Shown here piece after piece: positions 7,732 to 51,978 of a stretch of 64,000 bases of DNA; the first letter of the stretch is position 1; every line of letters starts with the position of its first letter. Below the pieces are notes generated by a model. That model was not told the origin of the DNA. It ran no database searches and saw only the letters and a list, made by a program, of their open reading frames with translations. Source of the stretch: Sialis fuliginosa (Eukaryota; Arthropoda; Insecta; Megaloptera; Sialidae); the NCBI GenBank assembly GCA_961205875.1, contig OY540814.1, forward strand, positions 23,504,151 to 23,568,150, given 5' to 3'. Made by a program: the position numbers and the translations under genes.

Positions 7732-8074
7732 TATTATCAATATTATTGTTGATTATTTTACAAATTTTTGTGACTTATCACAATTGTTATTTATTTATTT
7801 TAAAAATAAAATACTTTTATAAACATTATCGTTTAATATTTATTTATATGTATGTAACAGTTATAATTTTTCAGATATACAGTACAAGAAAAGTATTAAT
7901 ACATAAACGTTTTTAATTTGTTAGTTTATAGGTTAAGTTAGTCAATCAAACAATAACAATTTTTTGTTAAACAAATCAGTGGTGTTTTTGATTAAACTCG
8001 AAAATTATATCAAATATTAAATCGACGTCTGTATTTATTGTAAATTCTCAATTATATTCAAATAAATTAATAAA

Positions 8075-9037
8075 ATGTCTCAAATAGTAAAAAATATAAC
8101 CTCAAAACCATTCAGAAAATCTTTTCGAGTAATTCACAAAGAAACTCTACAATGGTTTCCAGGCCACATGGGAAAAGGTTTAAAACAAATGCAACAGAAA
8201 CTAAGATCTGTTGACTGTATAATAGAAGTCCACGATGCAAGAATACCATTCTCAGGTCGAAACATTGAGTTCAAATATAAAATAAGTGGCATAAAACCGC
8301 ACATATTAATGTTAAATAAAAAAGACTTGATCGAAAGAAAGACACAGTCATTAATCACATCAAAATTAAGTGAAGAAAACATAAATGTCCTATACACAAA
8401 CTGTAAAGACCAAAGATGTGACGGAGTAAAAAAACTAATTCCATTAGCAATCGATTTAATAACAAATTCAAATCGGTTCAATCGAGCTGAACAGCGGGAA
8501 TACTCAATCATGGTGATAGGTGTACCAAATGTAGGAAAGTCATCGCTAGTAAACATCCTACGGAGTAAAAATCTTCATAAACCTAGAGCGACGCAAGTCG
8601 GAGCGATTCCTGGGATAACTCGAAGCGTACTCACCCGAATCAAAATATCTGAAGACCCATTAGTGTATCTGCTAGATACGCCAGGGATCTTGACACCTTC
8701 AGTCCGTGATACTGAATCAGGTTTTAAATTAGCTCTCTGTGCTTGTTTACAAGATCATTTAGTTGGCGAAGATATAATAGCAGATTATTTATTATATTGG
8801 ATGAATAAGCAAAATAAATTTCAGTACGTTAATTTTATGGGACTAGATAAACCTTCGGATGAAATAAGCATGGTATTAGCGAATTATGCTTTTAAAAATA
8901 ATAAAATCAAAATGATCAAAAGTTATGATGGCAGACTTGTACAAAAACCAGACTTAACTCTTGCTGCTTTACAAATGATAAGAGCATTTAGAAATGGTGA
9001 TTTTGGGAAAATTTGTTTAGATGAAAATTTATTGTAA
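8075..9037 (+). CDS. Mtg1: Mitochondrial ribosome-associated GTPase 1 (MTG1)
   Basis: MTG1 is a circularly permuted GTPase of the YlqF/RbgA family that assists late assembly of the mitochondrial large ribosomal subunit. This intact, intronless frame encodes 320 residues. The motif order is permuted as expected: G4 NKKD (81-84) comes first, then G1 GVPNVGKSS (149-157), G2 in GITRS (about 181-184) and G3 DTPG (201-204). The family signature QWFPGHMGKGLKQMQQKL is near residue 27. The start at 8075 is preceded by AT-rich DNA and gives an N-terminus rich in Lys, Arg and Ser, consistent with mitochondrial import. The lack of introns, unlike all neighbours except DNAAF3 and the SNARE, is notable. 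Confidence 0.96.
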   Translation: MSQIVKNITSKPFRKSFRVIHKETLQWFPGHMGKGLKQMQQKLRSVDCIIEVHDARIPFSGRNIEFKYKISGIKPHILMLNKKDLIERKTQSLITSKLSEENINVLYTNCKDQRCDGVKKLIPLAIDLITNSNRFNRAEQREYSIMVIGVPNVGKSSLVNILRSKNLHKPRATQVGAIPGITRSVLTRIKISEDPLVYLLDTPGILTPSVRDTESGFKLALCACLQDHLVGEDIIADYLLYWMNKQNKFQYVNFMGLDKPSDEISMVLANYAFKNNKIKMIKSYDGRLVQKPDLTLAALQMIRAFRNGDFGKICLDENLL

Positions 9038-15400: not shown

Positions 15401-17008
15401 ATTTCCTGCAGTGAACTTCAACTCATCATACAAATATCCACTAAAAAACAAGAAAATAAGACGTAGAGGTATTATAGTTTTATAATTGAGCGTGTAAATT
15501 AAAATTAAATACTATTTTTGGTTAAAATGTTTGAGTTGCGCATAAAGATGAATATTCTAATAATATTTTTAAATTATTTATTAACTGAAAACACAGATTA
15601 GTATAAATTTACCAATAAAGAAAGGGAAGCACTGCCTCCATGGACGCTTCACCACTGATGTACAATATATTAAATTTTATTGAAGAAAATAATTATTTTT
15701 GCGTATAAATGATAACAATCGCATGTTAATGTTTCATTGTTAAATTATGGAAAGAATAAATTAGCAAATGATCTTTTTGTCATTTTGAAAATCAGATAAA
15801 TCTACTTTTTTGTGTGAATAATCCATAAAAAGTCGGTTAAAAATACAAAACTGTTTGTTTTTCAGTTATTGAAAGAAGAAAATGTTAAAGGTGTCGTTTC
15901 TATGAATGAAGATTATGAACTTTGGTTTTCAAACAATGAAAAGGTAAAAATGTAGTTTTTTTAAAATTTTAGTATGAATAAACACAATTGAAATAATTTT
16001 AAATAATAAAAACGGCCATGTGTGTGTTGGGCACGCACTTGGTCGAGTTCCGTAGTCATTCTCACTAACATTCTTTTTCGAAATGAACTACATTTCTACA
16101 ATATAAAGTAAAAAAAAGCTACATTCTGGATTTTATTCAGATTTTTTGCATCGATAGTTTAGAAATTAGAGGGGGGGAGACACTCTGATAATAAAACCAA
16201 ATATCTCTTGACTGAAGGATTAAAATCAAAGGGTCCTTAGACATTTTTAGTTGCCTTTTAGGATACCTATCTAAAGATACCCCACTCAATGGGGTAAGTG
16301 AAAATACATTTTTTTTGAGTACTTTTCAATTTATGGGAGGGGAGTACAAAAAATTTCTGCAGTTTGTTATAATTTTCATTGAAAGTACTAATTAAAAGCT
16401 ACATTCTGGAATTTTTTCAGATTTTTTGCATCGATAGTTTAGAAATTAGAGGGGGGAGAGACACCGATAACAAAACCAAATATCTCGTAACTGAAAGGTT
16501 AAAATCAAAAGATCATTAGACATTTTTAGTCGCATTTTAGGAGACCTATCTAAAGATATCCCCCACTCCCCCTTCTGCTATTCAACATACATACAAAATA
16601 ACATTTTTTAGCGATGGACTCAACAAGGTGTAGAATTTTTGCAACTAGCGACCACGGATATATTCGAATCACCAAATCAAGAGAAACTTCTAACTGGTGT
16701 TAATTTCATTAAGAAATTCAAATCGCGTTACAACAACGGCATAGGAGACACCGTGTACGTACATTGCAAAGCCGGAAGGACTAGAAGCGCCACGCTGGTC
16801 GGCTGTTACCTTATGCTTGTAAGTATCGCACAAATACAAAACAATTTGCACAATATTATCACCATCATTACAGATAAACGGTTGGACTCCAGAACAAGCC
16901 GTCGACCACATGCAGAACAGACGACCCCATATATTGCTGCATTCACCCCAATGGGCAGCACTCAAAATATTCTACAAGGATAACGTTAGAAAAACGTCAT
17001 TCCAATGA
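12496..17008 (+). CDS. Ptpmt1: Mitochondrial phosphatidylglycerophosphatase PTPMT1
   Basis: PTPMT1 is a dual-specificity-type phosphatase on the mitochondrial inner membrane. It removes phosphate from phosphatidylglycerophosphate in cardiolipin synthesis. Exons are 12496-12633, 15866-15943, 16612-16818 and 16874-17008, all in phase 0, encoding 185 residues (family about 200). Diagnostic blocks are [40 protein letters not shown] and the catalytic P-loop [10 protein letters not shown] with Cys124 and Arg130 (C-X5-R). Asp87 in TTDIF is the likely general acid by position. The N-terminus is short and hydrophobic, as in relatives. Intron 1 (3.2 kb) has taken a large foldback element, and intron 2 holds a dispersed repeat. 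A possible upstream mini-exon (9405-9425, ending CAG/GTAAG) could extend the N-terminus but is unproven. Confidence 0.95.
12985..13820. repeat. Dispersed repeat in PTPMT1 intron 1
   Basis: The segments 'ggtatggagaaccatacatg' (about 13000) and 'tttgtttccaaggcaacatg' (about 13254) recur in reverse complement around 52150-52420, so this is an interspersed repeat. The right part contains 'gacacacagacacacgcaca'. An open frame at 13583-13804 lies inside it and has no recognisable product. Confidence 0.5.
14576..15657. mobile_element. Large foldback hAT-type element, copy D
   Basis: The left end CAGTGGCGAGGCGTG and right end (inverted) CAGTGGTGAAGCGTCC are flanked by ATGTACAT (14568-14575) and ATGTACAA (15658-15665), a 7/8 target duplication. 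From about 14755 to 15450 it is an almost perfect palindrome with arms of about 340 bases. The sequence 'tttgagaggctatatctcga' occurs on the right and its reverse complement on the left. Because of the palindrome, nearly the same 62-residue frame appears on both strands (14988-15176 and 15011-15199). These are not genes. A second copy lies at 29970-30925. Confidence 0.8.
15999..16600. repeat. Dispersed repeat with two tandem partial units, PTPMT1 intron 2
   Basis: A block containing 'gcatcgatagtttagaaatt', a G-run and 'gacctatctaaagata' occurs twice (about 16120-16320 and 16390-16570). The same block, again twice, lies inside the TTAA element at 17884-19244, next to the shared start 'ataataaaa-cggccat'. 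This copy has lost its ends. Confidence 0.6.
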
Positions 17009-24182: not shown

Positions 24183-25727
24183 ATGAGTGCGCCTATCTAT
24201 ATATCTATACCAAAATACCTGACTGGGGCCCAAAGCCCCGTCAGCCCCGATTCTGTCAATTCTAGTGACGATTGTTACAGTGATTCTGCCAAGTCTCGCA
24301 TCAAAAGGAAACGATTGGATCATCTGTCATGGGAAGAAAAAATGTTGAGGAAGTGAGTAAATAATAACAATATAATGATAAATACAGAAATATTCACATA
24401 TCTGTTTATTAGGAAATTGAAAAATCGAGTTGCAGCACAAACATCTCGTGACCGCAAGAAAGCAAAGATGGACGAAATGGAAAAGAACTTAAATATTATC
24501 AAACAACAAAATGAAGTTTTGATTCGTGAATGCCAGTGTCTCAGAAAACTCAACGAGAAACTGCTTGCAGAAAACAGCATGCTGAAGCAACAAAACAAAT
24601 GTAAGTATTGATGAATATATTAATGTAGGTATATATAATATATAAATGTGTTTTTTTCCGGCAGGTCTAGACAAAGACGACAGCACAGCCCCACAGAGCT
24701 GCTCTGTCTGGCGCGTCCCTGAACAAGGACCCGCAGTGTCCCACAGACTCCCTCTGCCGCAGGGACAGGGCACGCGCCAGGCAGCCGCTCTATGGCTAGC
24801 GATGGCCTGTTTACTCTGTCGGACGTCCTCGCAGAGTTCGACACCACGGACCTTGAGCGTTTTGCAGAAAGCCTTCTCGACGAGATCATTACGGACTCTG
24901 GAGATCTTGAAAACAAAGCTGATAAGGTAACTGATGCACTAACTCAGTGTTTACCAAGGTGTTTCAAGGGGTACTTCTCAATATTTTTTATGTGAATAAC
25001 GTCTAATGTTTAACTCCAGAAACTGGAGTAAAACATTAACAGAGTTAAAACTGCAATATTAACTCTCAAAAGGGGTAGATGGGGATTTGAACTTTGGTAA
25101 ATACTGCTGACTAACTTAATAAAAAAAACATGAGCATTTACTATTTTTTTTTCTTCACAGCGGTCAACTACATATTCCACAACTGAGCAACCTCCCCGAC
25201 TGGTGGGGCCGCCACCAGAACAACTGGAACCCTGTCGAGATGACAGCATAGACGTGCATGCAGCGATACGGCCGCACAGTGAGGAAACCACAGAACACAG
25301 CTACAGCGCACATTCCACACAAGAAAACATCGAAACGGAAGTGATCTATGGAACTTACGACGAGTCTACAAACTCAGTGACGATATTGTCTGCAGACGAA
25401 GACGACCTGATGCTGGGGGAAGCAGTTGAGGAGGTCCACACTGAGAGGATAAGCCCCTTGGCCGAGTTCATCTCGAGTTATAATGATGGAGATGAGTGTT
25501 CGAACGATGATGTTAAATACGTTGATTTGTTGTCACCTATACCGAGTACAGTGAGCATAGCATCGCCTCTGTCCAGTCGAGACAGTCTCGTGTCTTCACC
25601 ATCTCCTGTCAAGTCTGATATATCTCTGTCTGATTGCGGGTATGAGTCTTTCGGATCTGCGTCAGATTTGTGCGATTTTGAGATGTGGGATGAAAGTTTG
25701 AACGAATTATTTCCAAATTTATTATAA
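24183..25727 (+). CDS. Xbp1: X-box binding protein 1, bZIP factor of the unfolded-protein response
   Basis: XBP1 is activated when ER-membrane IRE1 removes a short cytoplasmic intron from its mRNA. Nuclear-spliced exons are 24183-24352, 24413-24600, 24665-24926 and 25161-25727. Removing the additional 23 nt (24737-24759) joins the bZIP frame to the activation-domain frame and gives 387 residues. The basic region is KLKNRVAAQTSRDRKKAKMD, with a leucine zipper after it. The spliced C-terminus (EFDTTDLERFAESLLDEIIT, then acidic and Ser-rich to NELFPNLL) is the activation domain. Without the cytoplasmic splice the frame ends at 25249-25251, giving 236 residues with a hydrophobic segment and a terminal WWGRHQNNWNP motif. 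The final exon is therefore coding in two frames. Confidence 0.96.
24727..24765 (+). promoter_or_regulatory. IRE1 target twin stem-loops and 23-nt cytoplasmic intron of XBP1
   Basis: The first hairpin is GGAC-CCGCAGU-GUCC (24727-24741), with cleavage expected after 24736. The second is UCCCU-CUGCCGC-AGGGA (24749-24765), with cleavage after 24759. Both seven-base loops fit the IRE1 consensus CNGCNG/N and both stems pair perfectly. The excised piece, 24737-24759, is 23 nt and shifts the frame exactly as needed to enter MASDGLFTLSDVLAEF. The flanks do not match GT-AG, so the spliceosome would not remove it. Confidence 0.93.
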
Positions 25728-26389: not shown

Positions 26390-26740
26390 TTATTTAGGTT
26401 TAAAAAATTTAAGATATACAACAGCACCTAATATAATTATTTCCGATAAGATTATCATAATCAATATAAGCTTATTATATAAAACATGACGGCTCATTTT
26501 CTTAAAAATATTTCTAGATTTGTCCAACTGATCATTAGCATCAGTAAGTCTATGTTTACTTCGTAATAACGTTTCCCTTTGTTCTTCAAGTTCAGAAACA
26601 ACTTGTGTGCTGATTTCTTCGGTTTCAATTGCGACACGATTTGTTCTTGACAAACTTTCTGCTGTTCGTTCCAATGCTGATCTTCCTGCCATTACTGTTG
26701 AACGATTATGGTTATCCCAATCGTATTCTACTGGATTCAT
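26390..26740 (-). CDS. Vti1b: Vti1b-like SNARE lacking the N-terminal Habc domain
   Basis: Vti1 proteins are Qb-SNAREs that drive fusion among Golgi, endosome and lysosome membranes. This single-exon frame encodes 116 residues. The SNARE motif runs from about residue 25 to 87 (IETEEISTQVVSELEEQRET, with Gln54 where the central-layer Gln is expected, then LDKSRNIFKKMSRHVLYNK). A C-terminal anchor at about 90-111 is followed by KFFKPK. It resembles the C-terminal half of human VTI1B (232 residues). The Habc half is absent, and an in-frame stop precedes the ATG with no acceptor between, so the short form appears genuine. The gene is divergent from STT3B, about 590 bases from its start. Confidence 0.88.
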   Translation of the reverse strand: MNPVEYDWDNHNRSTVMAGRSALERTAESLSRTNRVAIETEEISTQVVSELEEQRETLLRSKHRLTDANDQLDKSRNIFKKMSRHVLYNKLILIMIILSEIIILGAVVYLKFFKPK

Positions 26741-27329
26741 TTTGATTAGTTTTTTGAGAAAATATTAATTACGTGAATTGAATTATATATAACCATATAT
26801 TTTGGCCGTTATTTTCTCATTTATAAATGTAATCACATATAAATAAATCAAAATGATGATAACAGATATTTCAATTAATTAATTAAAAAACAATTACAAA
26901 AAAAACGTAAATAAATCTACTTTTGAAGTTTCTCTAATTTATTTTCCACAAATCTCAGAAAATTACCAACTGTATAAAAATGTACTGATGAAAACAAAAT
27001 AAAAATTATATTAGAAAATATTTAGTGATTATCAACGAAAATATTAATATTTAAGATAATATAGACTGATTTGATATAATAACTTTTTAAAATAATAATT
27101 GAACTGATTTTTCTATGAATATTTAATATCTGAGAAATGACAATTGAATTTGTAGTACGAAATAATTCATGAATAGAAATGAGTTTATTGTTTAGGGACC
27201 ATCGGCGCACGGTGGGCGCACGATAGTTTTATAGTGTAATTTGGATTCAGTGTTGTGGAAACGTGATGCGACGTGTCAAACTTGTCACGTTCAGTTTGAT
27301 TCAGTTAAATTGTCGGGAGCCGAATAAAA

Positions 27330-30300
27330 ATGGTCGGCCAAACCGGCATTAGGCATAAATCACATAGCATTAATAATAAAGCAGGTTTGAGTAGCTTATT
27401 GATATTTACGATTCTTTTACTAGCTTGGATATCAGGCTTCTCGTCCCGTCTTTTCGCTGTCATTAGGTTTGAAAGTATCATTCATGAATTCGATCCATGG
27501 TAAGTAAAATGTGTTTTTAAAATATAATTACTAGATGGGGCGTTGTGGTTATCGAATATCTAGTCAATACAGAAAACAAGCAATCGTTATTCAATGATTC
27601 TGTTTTCATGATATGCGTAGATATTTTAGTATTTCATTGTTTGAAACTCTTAACCTCTAAAATGGTTACACAGTAGTTTTGTATTTTTTTCCAGGTTTAA
27701 CTATCGCGCCACGGCGTACATGGTACAGCATGGATTCTACAATTTCCTCAATTGGTTCGACGAGAGAGCGTGGTATCCGCTGGGAAGAATTGTGGGCGGT
27801 ACGGTGTACCCTGGGCTCATGATTACTTCCGGTGCCATACATTATGTACTGCACTCACTTAATATCCCCGTCCATATCAGAGATATTTGTGTTTTTCTTG
27901 CCCCCGTCTTTAGGTATGTTTTGAAACAATCAATAGTGTGTTTCAATTATTACTTATTTTTTTATATATTTTTTTAACAGTGGGCTAACAGCGATTTCCA
28001 CATATTTATTAACAAAAGAATTATGGTCATCTGGTGCAGGATTATTTGCGGCCTGCTTTATTGCGATCGTGCCCGGTTACATTAGTCGATCAGTTGCTGG
28101 TAGCTACGACAATGAGGGTATTGCAATTTTCGCATTACAGTTTACTTACTACTTGTGGGTTAAGTCTGTGAAGACTGGATCTATATTTTGGGCTACCGTT
28201 ACTGCCTTATCATACTTTTATATGGTAAGTACTAATTTAATTTTTTATATTAATGTAAATAAGTTATTTTATGTTACGTTGAAATTACAACAATTAACAT
28301 TTCCTGTTTGATTTTTATGTACAAATACTAGATAACAGAGGTAATTATTGTATGGGTTATTAACTTTGAATAGATAATGGATTTGTGCATTATTTCAATT
28401 ATATGATGTTATTAACTCATAAAAAAATCAATTGGTTATATTATCTCTATGTAAAAATGAATGTTCATTTGTATGGGGATTATAGATTCGAGAATTACTG
28501 AACTGATTTCAATGTGGTTTTCACCAATAGTTAGATAATTTTTCAGTGGGTGTTCTTAACTATTAATATTTTATGAAAAAATAAGTTTTAACAGAAAAAG
28601 ACTAAAAAATCTAGCCATGGAATAAATAATTTTATAATTTATCGTTTAAATATTATATTAATTTAGGTCACTATGATTACGTTTTTTTCAAATATTTTGT
28701 CGAACAATTTGATTCCTACTATATTCTTAGTTAGTTAACTAAAGTGTTTTAGTGCAGTACCGAGAGTTTTAGCATATACAAGGGTAGTCAGCATGCCTGA
28801 CTATGTAACTATTTTTGTTGCGCTTTGATCTATTGTGTTAATAATTCTTGTAAGAATTAGTGGTTATATTTTATGAGCATGTATTATATTTTGCCTAATT
28901 TCAGAAATATAGACTTAAGGTACTGGCACCAATAATGGCCACTATAAGAGCAAGGTTTACTGTTTTTGTAGAAGTGTTAGTGAGAGGGCAATATGAGCGC
29001 GCAGAGTAGAAAAACGCACATATTTTTGGTTTGGTTATTGGAAATTTACATAATACGTACCTAGTGACCTTTTTTTATCAATATGGTCAGGTCTAGCTTT
29101 AGGAGATCACCCTTAGTGGTGTAACCAGTGGGTGGGGGGATAAGGGGGCGTTGCCCCCCCACAGTTTTGTAACCAATGAGGTGACAATTTGTTATACCAT
29201 ATAATATATATGTAAAATATGTTTTTTGTCAATGATCTCCATAAAAAAATGTGTTCTCCATAAATAAATATTGGTTACGCCACTGATCCCCACAATTTTC
29301 AGCATCTTTCCTACTAACAGGTTTGGACGTTGCAATATGTATTCTAGAAATTGTAATAATCCTGCAAAAATTTAAATTTTATTTTGTTTATAATCTTCAT
29401 TACTACATTAACTAACTGTAGTATTTTTATAACAGTGGCGCCGAAGGAGGGAGGGGTGGTAGTACGAACCTCGGACCTTATACTTGTATAAAAATATTTT
29501 AAGTCTTATTGTATTATTGAGGATATGTTTTTTTACGAACATACAAGATTTATGTTATTAATAAAACAATAAATGATATAAATCGCAGTTGACCCCCCCC
29601 TTCCGCCCTCAGCTTCGGCGCCACTGCTTTATAGTAGTCTGTTTGTTGTTTATTAAATTTAAATATTATTTATTTATCAACGATATTTGTGTCTTCGCTC
29701 GCTTAAATATAAAAGTTAAAAGAGCGCAGTGGCGTAGATAGGGGGGGGGGATCAAGGAGATCAATCCCCTCCATGAGTCTACGAAAATTATAAGTTGATC
29801 AAAAGAATTTATAATACTACACGAATTTAGTTGCCAGATTTCTAAAATGCTCCGGCGGGGCAGTCTCGGACCGAGGGGGGGGAGGGTAATTTTTAGGTTG
29901 CAGAATTTTTATTTTTTTTTATTTTTTAACATACAAATAAATTCATCTACTAGTTATATACTTCTATATCAGTGGCGAAGCGTCCATGGAAGCAGGGGAA
30001 GCAGTGCTTGTCGTACTTAAGGGTAAATTAATACAAATCTGTGTTTTCAGTTAATAAATAATTAAAAAATATTATTAGAATATTCGTCTTTATGCGCAAC
30101 TCAAACATTTTAATCAAAAATAGCATTAATATTAATTTACACGCTCAGTTATAAAACTATAATACCTCTACGTCTTATTTTCTTGTATTTTAGTCGATAT
30201 TTGTATGACGAGTTGAAGTTCACTGCATGAAATTTTACTAAAAAATTTTATTTTTTTTATTTCGTTAAAAGTATGTTTATTGTATAGAAAATGACGTGAA

Positions 30301-33300
30301 AAGTTGAAATTTTCAAACCGCAGATCTGTATCTCAAACCGTTCTCGAGATATAGCCTCTCAAAGTTTTAGTTTTTTCAAATTTTTGGAGAAAAAAGGCCA
30401 TAACTTTTGAACGCGTGGTCGGAATTGATTTTAGTTGACGGATTTGAAATCAGCGTGTCAAAATCTATATAATGACATGTATAATACATTAAAACTCGAA
30501 AAAAAAAAATTCACGAAAAATCGAAAAAATTCAAAGGGGTATACCTTAAAAAAATGTTGATTTTTGGCCAAAATTTTTTTGCCGGATTTTAAAGTATTAT
30601 ATATGTCATTATATAGATTTTGACACGCCGATTTTAAATCCGTCAACTAAAATCAATTCCGACCACGCGTTCAAAAGTTATGGCCTTTTTTCTCCAAAAA
30701 TTTGAAAAAACTAAAACTTTGAGAGGCTATATCTCGAGAACGGTTTGAGATACAGACCTGCGGTTTGAAACAAACAACTTTTCACGTCATTTTCTATACA
30801 ATAAACATACTTTTAACAAAATAAAAAATTCAAAAATTTTTAGTGAAATTTCCTGCAGTGAACTTCAACTCGTCATACAAATATCGACTAAAATACAAGA
30901 AAATAAGACGTAGAGGTATTATGGTTAGTATTATATATAGTTCTCGAGTGAAAAGCGCACTAACGGACAGACAGACAGATACGTTGCGTTTTATAATATG
31001 TAGGTTAATTGTATTTTCTCAGGAGAGTAAAATAAGAGTTTGAAATAAATGTACCTATTTTATTCAGGTATGATATTAGAATTTATTGAAACGTATTTGT
31101 TGAATGAATAGACGCGTGACAGAACCGTAACTAGAGGCTCTGCGGACCCGGGGCAGCAAGTGACTGAGGGAAGGGGCCCTTGGGCTAACGTGTGATGTGT
31201 GATTAAATTGTGTGTTTGATACGATAGGTGTCGGCGTGGGGCGGCTACGTGTTCATCATAAACTTAATCCCGCTGCACGTATTCGTTCTGTTGCTGATGG
31301 GTCGATTCTCACACCGCCTGTTCACGAGTTATACGACGTTCTACATCCTCGGGCTGCTGCTGTCGATGCAGATCCCGTTCGTCGGGTTCCAGCCAATCAG
31401 GACGAGCGAGCACATGGCCGCGTCCGGAGTGTTCGCGCTACTGGTCGCGGTCGGCACGCTCAAGTATCTGCAGAGTATGCTGTCTAAGTCTGAGTTCAAG
31501 CTGCTGTTCACAGCGGGTGTGTTGATCGCGGCGGCCGTCGTCTTCCTGACGGTCGTGCTGCTCACGTACGCCGGCTTTATTGCACCTTGGAGCGGCAGGT
31601 GCGTGCCTAACTCTCTTTATCTCCAACTCCACGCCGATGTCTAAATGTGATGTATTAATTATCTTTTAGGTTTTATTCGTTGTGGGACACAGGCTACGCT
31701 AAAATACATATCCCGATCATTGCTTCGGTCTCGGAACACCAGCCCACCACCTGGTTCTCGTTTTTCTTTGATCTCCACGTTTTGATCACAACATTCCCCG
31801 CCGGTCTTTGGTACGTCATAAAGAACATCAATGATGAAAGAGTGTTTGGTAAGTATTAGTGAAAATGGTTTGTTACATCAATATATAATTGATTATAATT
31901 GTTGTTTTTCAGTTGTACTATACGCGTTGAGCGCGGTGTACTTTGCAGGCGTCATGGTCCGTCTGATGCTGACTCTGACTCCAGTCGTGTGCATGTTAAG
32001 CGGAGTCGCGTTCTCAGGACTGCTCGAACTGTACCTGAAGGAGGAAGACACGGCACTGACATCCGAGGACAGTGATGAAGGGAACGCAGGTGCCGGGATG
32101 TACGACAAAGCGGGCAAACTGCGACGCATGAAGCACGAGCAGCGCAGGGCCGACGGGGTTCCGGGGGCTGACGGTACGGACGGCCAGGGTGTCGGCGTCA
32201 ACGTGCGCAGCATAGTCGTCGTAGCTGTTCTTATTCTTCTGATGATGTTCGCCGTTCACTGCACGTGGGTCACGAGCAACGCGTACTCGAGCCCGAGCAT
32301 CGTGCTCGCTTCGTACGCGGGCGACGGCTCTCGTCAGATACTGGACGACTTCCGCGAAGCGTACTACTGGCTGTCGCAGAACACGGCCGACGACGCCCGC
32401 GTCATGAGCTGGTGGGACTACGGCTACCAGATAGCCGGGATGGCGAATCGGACGACCCTGGTCGACAACAACACTTGGAACAACAGCCACATTGCGTTGG
32501 TCGGCAAGGCGATGTCCTCGAACGAAAGCGCCGCGTACAAAATAATGACAGCGCTCGACGTAGATTACGTTCTAGTGATATTCGGCGGAGTTATCGGATA
32601 TTCCGGAGACGATATCAACAAGTTCCTCTGGATGGTTCGCATAGCCGAAGGCGAACACCCGAAAGATATCCGCGAGGCTGATTACTTTACAGAACACGGC
32701 GAGTTCCGCGTTGACGCCGAAGGTTCTCCGACTCTGCTGAACTCTCTGATGTACAAGCTGAGCTATTACAGGTTCGGCGAGCTCAAGCTGGACTATCGCA
32801 GCGCAGCCGGGTACGACCGCACGCGCAGCGCAGTCATAGGTAATCGTAACTTTGAGCTGACGTATCTGGAGGAGGCGTACACGACCGAGCACTGGCTCGT
32901 CAGAGTCTACCGTGTCAAGAAACCTCACGAGTTCAACCGACCCAGGATTCCTGTAACCGATCGCGCTGTTCGAAGGTCGCAAACGTTCATCACTAAAAAA
33001 GTAAGTTTAATCTAAACCTAATAAGATTGTGATTAAAATTATTACATTAAGTGATATTTAAGGCCCCTACTGTAAAAATAATTAAAATCAACTGGAAAAA
33101 ATAGTCCAGATGCGTATTAAGTAATATTTAAAGCCCCTACTGTAAAAATAACAATATCAGATAAACTAAATAAAAACCTTGAATATAATTTAATCAACTA
33201 AAAAAGCAGTACTCCAGATGCGTATTAAGTGATATTTAAGGCCCCTACTGTAAAATTATCAAAATCACATAAACTAAATAGAAACCTTGAATATAATTTA

Positions 33301-50555: not shown

Positions 50556-51896
50556 CTATTTTTCGTTAATAAATTTTACATAATTATTCTTCTGTGAGTG
50601 TTCATTCTCTATTATAACTAAACCCAATGATTTTGCCTTTTCCGATACGTTTTCTTCATATTTTTTAACCACTTCTCTCTGCAAATTCACAAGAAACCGT
50701 TTGGTTTCGACTATAACCATACAATCTGAATTCAGATTCTTGAGAATATCGTCTATGAAGAACTCTTCATAAAAGTCATGTGCGATATATAAAACATCGA
50801 AGAACTGTAAATGCTGTTCCAAAAATAACGATACCCTATTTACAGAAATGAGATTTACTTCAACATTTTTTACATCGATCATTTCTTCATAATCATATTT
50901 AATCTTATCCTTCTTTTCTTCTAAACAGTTTGCATCGACTACAGGATTTTGATTAATTTTCATCACCCTTACCCCCGAAAATTCCTGTTCATTTTGCAAA
51001 ACAAACTCCTCTTTATTTGCTAATTCGTAAAAATACTGCATCAAATTGTATTCAGTTATATCAGTCGCCCTTTTAATATATTGATCATTAGCTTTCTTCA
51101 ACAAGTCCTGATTATTGCATTCGATGCCATATGATATGAAAGGGCCTGTAATAATATCTCCCAAATACCCATGATTGTAAAGGGCAGTGCCTTGAGGTAA
51201 AACACCAGCACTAAATGATAAATTAGGTCTTGTTGATTCCGTTTCGATCCACGTAAATGCAACTCCTGTATTTCTCCAGTTAGTATATTCCTGTGGCTGT
51301 ATCTTTCCGTCAACGAGTTCTCTCAGTCTCATATGGTAATCCCAATCAAACGCTCCAATCCTTGAGTCATACCTTGTTCCAAGATATCGCCTCAGCCTCA
51401 AATCCCAGAAGTTGACGATATCGAAATTGATCGTTCGTAAATGTCCCCAGAATTTGAACAAGTTTTCGAGATAATCTCTTTCTTTGTATTTTAACCTGTT
51501 AAGTTTGAATATAGGGAACACCTTTTCGCAGTATTGCAGGTTCGTGATTAGGTTTACTAACATTTGTGACTTGTTCGTTAAGTAATTGAACACGCTAGGG
51601 CGTAGAAGAGAGTTGGCATATATTTCCATGAAGGTCCGTGTTTTCTGGAATAAACCCAGCTTGTTTTGAGATTCGAGTGCGATTGTAAGCAATAATATCT
51701 GGCGCCCGATTTGTTCTAGGTGTCTTTCGACCATGTAGAAATTAAGTTTGACATTGTCATAGTTATGTAGACGGGATATAGTCTTTAGAACGTGTCTGAT
51801 GTCTGTGCAGCCGAATATTAAAATATTTACTGTTTTTTTCTTACTGTTTGGGAGTTCGTTTAATATGTTTAATGCAGGAGTTGTCCCCCAAAACAT
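50556..51896 (-). CDS. Dnaaf3: Dynein axonemal assembly factor 3
   Basis: DNAAF3 helps preassemble axonemal dynein arms in the cytoplasm before they enter cilia or sperm flagella. This single-exon frame encodes 446 residues beginning MFWGTTPALNILNEL. Recognisable blocks are VNILIFGCTDIRHVLKTISR, FYMVERHLEQIGRQILLL, NALLRPSVFNYL, RYLGTRYDSRIGAFDWDYHM, WRNTGVAFTW and GYLGDIITGPFISYGIE, in the same order as human DNAAF3. The C-terminal part is more diverged. The absence of introns is unusual for the region. An RFX X-box-like site lies 69 bases before the start. In an insect, expression would be expected in sensory neurons with cilia and in testis. Confidence 0.94.
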   Translation of the reverse strand: MFWGTTPALNILNELPNSKKKTVNILIFGCTDIRHVLKTISRLHNYDNVKLNFYMVERHLEQIGRQILLLTIALESQNKLGLFQKTRTFMEIYANSLLRPSVFNYLTNKSQMLVNLITNLQYCEKVFPIFKLNRLKYKERDYLENLFKFWGHLRTINFDIVNFWDLRLRRYLGTRYDSRIGAFDWDYHMRLRELVDGKIQPQEYTNWRNTGVAFTWIETESTRPNLSFSAGVLPQGTALYNHGYLGDIITGPFISYGIECNNQDLLKKANDQYIKRATDITEYNLMQYFYELANKEEFVLQNEQEFSGVRVMKINQNPVVDANCLEEKKDKIKYDYEEMIDVKNVEVNLISVNRVSLFLEQHLQFFDVLYIAHDFYEEFFIDDILKNLNSDCMVIVETKRFLVNLQREVVKKYEENVSEKAKSLGLVIIENEHSQKNNYVKFINEK

Positions 51897-51964
51897 TTCT
51901 TTATGTTTTGATTTAATTGAAGCTGTATTTAAGGTTTGACCTGTTACGGAAACTAAATAAATAA

Positions 51965-51978
51965 GTTGCTATGGTTAC
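51965..51978 (-). promoter_or_regulatory. RFX X-box-like site upstream of DNAAF3
   Basis: In the gene's orientation the sequence is GTAACC-AT-AGCAAC. The X-box consensus is RYYNYY-N1-3-RRNRAC. The second half fits fully and the first differs at one position. RFX factors control ciliary genes in insects and nematodes, and the distance of about 70 bases from the start codon is typical. Confidence 0.5.

Follow-up and report, generated by a model that had tools for sequence, protein, structure and literature searches.

An XBP1 gene of Sialis fuliginosa whose unspliced frame carries a hydrophobic segment and a C-terminal tail resembling the mammalian ribosome-arrest peptide

Within the window, the stretch of 64,000 nucleotides of the Sialis fuliginosa genome that was analysed, the gene at 24183–25727 on the forward strand is XBP1. 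Its four exons join at GT..AG borders: the coding part of exon 1 runs from the ATG (24183–24352) and its frame continues into exon 2 with the bZIP domain (24413–24600), followed by exon 3 (24665–24926), which holds the IRE1 site as well as a hydrophobic segment, and by exon 4 (25161–25727), to which exon 3 is joined in the unspliced and in the spliced frame. Searched with the joined protein, the bZIP domain, located in the N-terminal part common to both products, scores above the curated cut-off of PF00170 (E 1.6e-8), and this segment finds a single match in the species' own assembly (392 Mb, 20 contigs), while the same query against viral and prokaryote collections, which are without animals, gave 5 and 57 pattern matches respectively and 0 confirmed relatives. 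As the sequence-only reading had proposed, the unspliced frame passes from exon 3 into exon 4 and stops at 25249–25251, which is reproduced exactly upon joining the four exons. The unspliced product of 236 amino acids includes QAAALWLAMACLLC and has LPDWWGRHQNNWNPVEMTA as its C-terminal end; the spliced frame ends at 25727, and the third frame of the joined exons is full of stops. Retention of the intron between exons 3 and 4 would give the unspliced frame an earlier stop, 24928–24930, which would cost the putative arrest tail and spare the hydrophobic segment. The G+C content of the two-frame part of the gene is 0.58 (24665–24926) and 0.56 (25161–25251), compared with 0.46 in the remainder of exon 4 and 0.31 in the whole window.

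XBP1 is flanked by genes for a mitochondrial-type ribosomal protein L15 (22982–23656, forward strand; PF00828), a V-SNARE on the opposite strand (26390–26764, reverse strand; PF12352) and, in several exons, the oligosaccharyltransferase STT3 (27330–33012, forward strand; PF02516 and PF21436). The window also holds further conserved genes, for a ribosome-binding GTPase (8066–9034, forward strand; PF01926) and a dual-specificity phosphatase (16612–16980, forward strand; PF00782), and a 470-codon open frame on the reverse strand (50559–51968) with DUF4471 (E 2.9e-85) and DUF4470, the domain pair of the axonemal assembly factor DNAAF3.

The exon 3 stretch 24700–24790 (forward strand) is predicted to fold into an IRE1-type double hairpin, in which a long stem carries a pair of small hairpins. 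The predicted energy is −45.3 kcal/mol (z −3.04), a stability that 0 of 200 shuffles reached. The small 5' hairpin (24727–24741) presents the loop CCGCAGU (24731–24737) and the small 3' hairpin (24749–24765), as we read the fold, the loop CUGCCGC (24754–24760); an extra inner pair in the predicted structure narrows this second loop to 4 nt, and the 7-nt loop requires that pair to be open. Folded without the long outer stem, 24721–24773 adopts another structure (z 0.19, 119 of 200 shuffles as stable), and neither 24724–24746 (z −1.14, 35 of 200) nor 24745–24770 (z −0.06, 85 of 200) is significantly stable when folded alone. If both 7-nt loops are cut behind their third base, the double hairpin suggests a 23-nt intron, 24734–24756, whose removal opens a spliced frame of 387 amino acids ending in NELFPNLL. 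An intron of 26 nt, the length of the mammalian XBP1 IRE1 intron, had been the initial assumption; removal up to 24759 leads into the same frame (386 amino acids), but fits worse than 23 nt given the second loop CUGCCGC in the fold. The xbp-1 intron is likewise 23 nt long in work on Aedes aegypti (PMC3645755) and in an assay with Drosophila S2 cells (PMC3776770).

In the unspliced frame, 24778–24819 (forward strand) encodes QAAALWLAMACLLC, which has the top hydrophobicity among all 14-residue stretches of unspliced XBP1 and, with a Kyte-Doolittle mean of 1.91 as compared with 1.81 for human HR2, is a candidate HR2 counterpart. Over 19 residues the mean is 1.01 versus 1.62 in human, hence the hydrophobic stretch is shorter than human HR2. 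From the segment it is 50 residues to the tryptophan that opens the core of the C-terminal tail and 62 to the position of human N261, a spacing that would place the segment beyond the ribosomal tunnel at a pause. Human XBP1u also has its hydrophobic segment upstream of the core at a comparable distance.

The tail itself contains WGRHQNNWNP (25204–25233, forward strand), equivalent to human residues 249–258, and with it both elements that had been claimed for the unspliced frame, hydrophobic segment and arrest-like tail, are located. When the tail was compared with PDB sequences at E up to 10, the one match, spanning 12 residues with an E of 0.48, was the ribosome-bound human XBP1u peptide; this is weak taken alone and nevertheless telling because of its location. 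Human XBP1u structures for comparison are 6R5Q, 6R6G, 6R6P and 6R7Q (PMC6624018). The human reference at the DNA level, the sole other species at that level, was the construct described in the same paper, and since this carries an engineered change at codon 255, that codon was left out of the core counts. Identity to human XBP1u then amounts to 7 of 9 over residues 249–258 without 255, to 1 of 12 over residues 237–248 and to 0 of 3 over residues 259–261. All six turn residues (W249, G250, R251, H252, W256 and P258) are kept, whereas the human upstream contacts Y241, P244 and L246 are, in the ungapped register, Q, N and P, with a leucine at 245, one residue off the position of human L246. The tail further differs from the human one by Asn-Asn at 254–255, by Asp at 247, by the absence of M260-N261 in the ungapped alignment and by two extra codons (Thr, Ala) between the N261-aligned residue and the stop. 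Given that the A site of the stalled human ribosome is described as holding N261, the last sense codon (PMC6624018), the wording of a pause at the stop in the sequence-only reading was loose, as Thr and Ala follow the aligned residue here. The combination of the WGRHQxxWxP core with overlapping IRE1-shifted frames is the same as in human XBP1u, and the comparison supports orthology of the tail with the mammalian arrest peptide.

A ribosome-pausing XBP1u mechanism is already published for insects and thus not new in them, as conservation of HR2 and the C-terminal pausing region in Drosophila was reported by Coelho and others (PMC4138184) and ribosome profiling gave peaks near the Xbp1u end in fly, zebrafish, mouse and human, with the fly stall at the same aligned position (PMC8152447). 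Like the gene described here, Drosophila Xbp1u combines a hydrophobic segment and a tail (PMC4138184, PMC8152447), a precedent that the sequence-only reading leaves unmentioned. Five stall residues are listed as common to fly and vertebrates, namely Pro at −2, Trp at −4, position −7, Gly at −10 and Trp at −11 (PMC8152447); position −7 is printed there as Glu while the human peptide has Gln, and with Gln taken for it all five agree in S. fuliginosa. R251 and H252 are outside that shared set and kept here, with the fly presumably differing at both; on the other hand, L246 and W256 are said to be kept in the Drosophila tail, which has Ala at 255 (PMC4138184), whereas the present tail has Asn at 255 and does not keep L246. 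What appears new is hence the retention of R251 and H252 in an insect in which the human upstream contacts are not kept, and for this reason the fly tail may represent insects incompletely. No arrest peptide of a non-Drosophila insect was found among the literature matches listed, which covered titles and abstract openings and few subscription journals.

Our main reading, to which we assign a probability of roughly 85%, is that of an insect XBP1 whose unspliced product acts as its mammalian and probably also its Drosophila counterpart does, and whose tail is very probably a functional arrest peptide of XBP1u. For this gene we infer a pause, membrane recruitment and a cleavage, including its length, in the following order. 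While the tail is made, the WGRHQxxWxP turn would form in the ribosome exit tunnel and would slow translation close to the end of the unspliced frame; the hydrophobic segment, 50 to 62 residues upstream and by then outside the tunnel, would draw the ribosome together with its mRNA to the ER membrane. There, active IRE1 would remove the 23 nt and translation would shift to the activator frame. The earlier proposal of the same pausing mechanism as in mammals thus stands with respect to orthology, the non-chance core, the inferred role and the fly stall, and is qualified by the upstream half of the peptide, which is not kept. The fly also qualifies it, as deletion of both elements merely lowered splicing: 9 of 38 clones were spliced in the mutant versus 15 of 37 in the control (PMC4138184), thus a reduction, not an abolition.

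A distinctly less probable, though by no means negligible, explanation is a conserved tail with a weak or absent pause and targeting via the hydrophobic segment or other elements. The mutagenesis described in PMC6624018 points to the importance of Y241, P244 and residue 255: of the eight residues found there to be optimal for arrest, six are kept here and precisely Y241 and P244 are missing. S255 is reported as completely conserved among natural sequences, in a logo built on 90 BLAST hits, and any change of A255 in the P254V/S255A construct, even back to Ser, led to full-length product only, that is, to no arrest under pulling force (PMC6624018). L246 is missing as well, and L246A is reported to abolish pausing; in the fly, splicing continues after HR2 and tail have both been deleted (PMC4138184). 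Asn at 254–255 points in the same direction, and the shorter hydrophobic stretch, as seen in its 19-residue mean, counts against the main reading. On the other hand, the tail retains the turn residues of the optimal set, and polar or charged residues at 247, where S. fuliginosa has Asp, are reported to strengthen arrest, as are nine of the changes at 254 (PMC6624018), which may apply to the Asp and Asn present here, while the fly stalls at the same position with just five residues in common with vertebrates (PMC8152447). Simulation work also has 247, 254 and 255 setting arrest strength (PMC8908735). With Y241, P244 and L246 lost and Asn-Asn at 254–255, arrest strength may differ from that of the human peptide, and a functional pause is still our preferred reading.

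The bases of the core are common to both frames, so that the tail might also be a relic or by-product, with selection holding the spliced protein and the unspliced peptide merely following from it, in agreement with which the spliced residues VG and LE also match human. The odds of the motif argue against this. Upon fixing the spliced protein, WGRHQxxWxP arises at this register in 32 of 393216 synonymous codon choices (8e-5), and the looser WGxxQxxWxP, which occurs once in the window, at this very site (six-frame translation, 127996 positions), in 512 of 393216; the claim that the motif is too specific for chance is thereby borne out. Sampling of the whole overlap produced the motif in 16 of 200000 cases with uniform codons or 59 of 200000 with the gene's own usage, the latter figure being biased upward because that usage includes this stretch. 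The unspliced frame was open in 4464 (uniform) or 13118 (own usage) of 200000 samples, the observed hydrophobicity was reached in 905 or 789 of 40000, and both together, an open and equally hydrophobic frame, in 21 or 80 of 40000; taken singly, openness of the frame and hydrophobicity of the stretch are just moderately unlikely, each with a chance of about 2 to 7 per cent.

The differences from human DNA also speak against a by-product. Six of the 8 base differences in the nine core codons fall on third positions of the unspliced frame; put singly into the window sequence, 4 of the 8 are silent in the unspliced and 0 in the spliced frame, and put singly into the human sequence, 5 and 1 respectively. 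The spliced core changed from VGTSS in human to VGPPP while WGRHQ in the unspliced frame stayed identical, and 4 of 11 spliced-frame core residues (VG and LE) match human, a count in which up to 2 of the 11 are affected by the engineered codon 255 of the human construct. In Fisher tests, differences at position 3 versus positions 1 and 2 gave p 0.006 in the core and p 0.72 upstream, and core versus upstream gave p 0.0004 for positions 1 and 2 and p 0.024 for the spliced wobble; these results agree with the pattern, but involve some circularity, conservation having been the criterion by which the core was chosen. Since the differences are mostly at third positions and each alters the spliced protein, it looks as if the core block is preserved on account of the unspliced frame, as judged from one species pair, and a by-product is highly improbable. 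The expectation that both frames are under constraint consequently finds support for the unspliced frame with its third-position pattern and less so for the spliced frame, which with so few core residues matching human makes constraint over the core look mainly one-sided. Least probable of all, a tail kept for another job such as the instability of an inhibitory XBP1u, in line with the description of mammalian XBP1u as an unstable protein that antagonises XBP1s and ATF6 (PMC4138184), has against it that the residues kept belong to the set found optimal for arrest (PMC6624018) and that a stall has been observed in the fly (PMC8152447).

A tentative extension, to which we give rather less than even odds, is that the arrest peptides of insect XBP1u form a set re-tuned by nature, of which the present one keeps the turn with R251/H252, discards L246 and the contacts at the tunnel constriction in human, Y241 and P244, and has Asn-Asn in the turn. 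If this tail pauses, the turn alone would in that case be enough in this lineage, and stall strength would be a trait evolving between animal groups. By parsimony, from the two species compared, the WGRHQxxWxP core would predate the split of insects and vertebrates. As the turn occurs in the present copy without the upstream contacts, the minimal arrest determinant becomes testable with natural variants. To our knowledge, there are few natural cases of animal nascent-chain arrest peptides read from an overlapping frame.

As to the wider genome context, a 25-mer of TTAGG, the common insect telomere repeat, matched the assembly 2537 times in forward and 3660 times in reverse orientation (reversed control, 0 and 0), in keeping with an insect, and TTAGG arrays are scattered along one contig, not just at its ends (3172183 to 47091182, among the matches listed).
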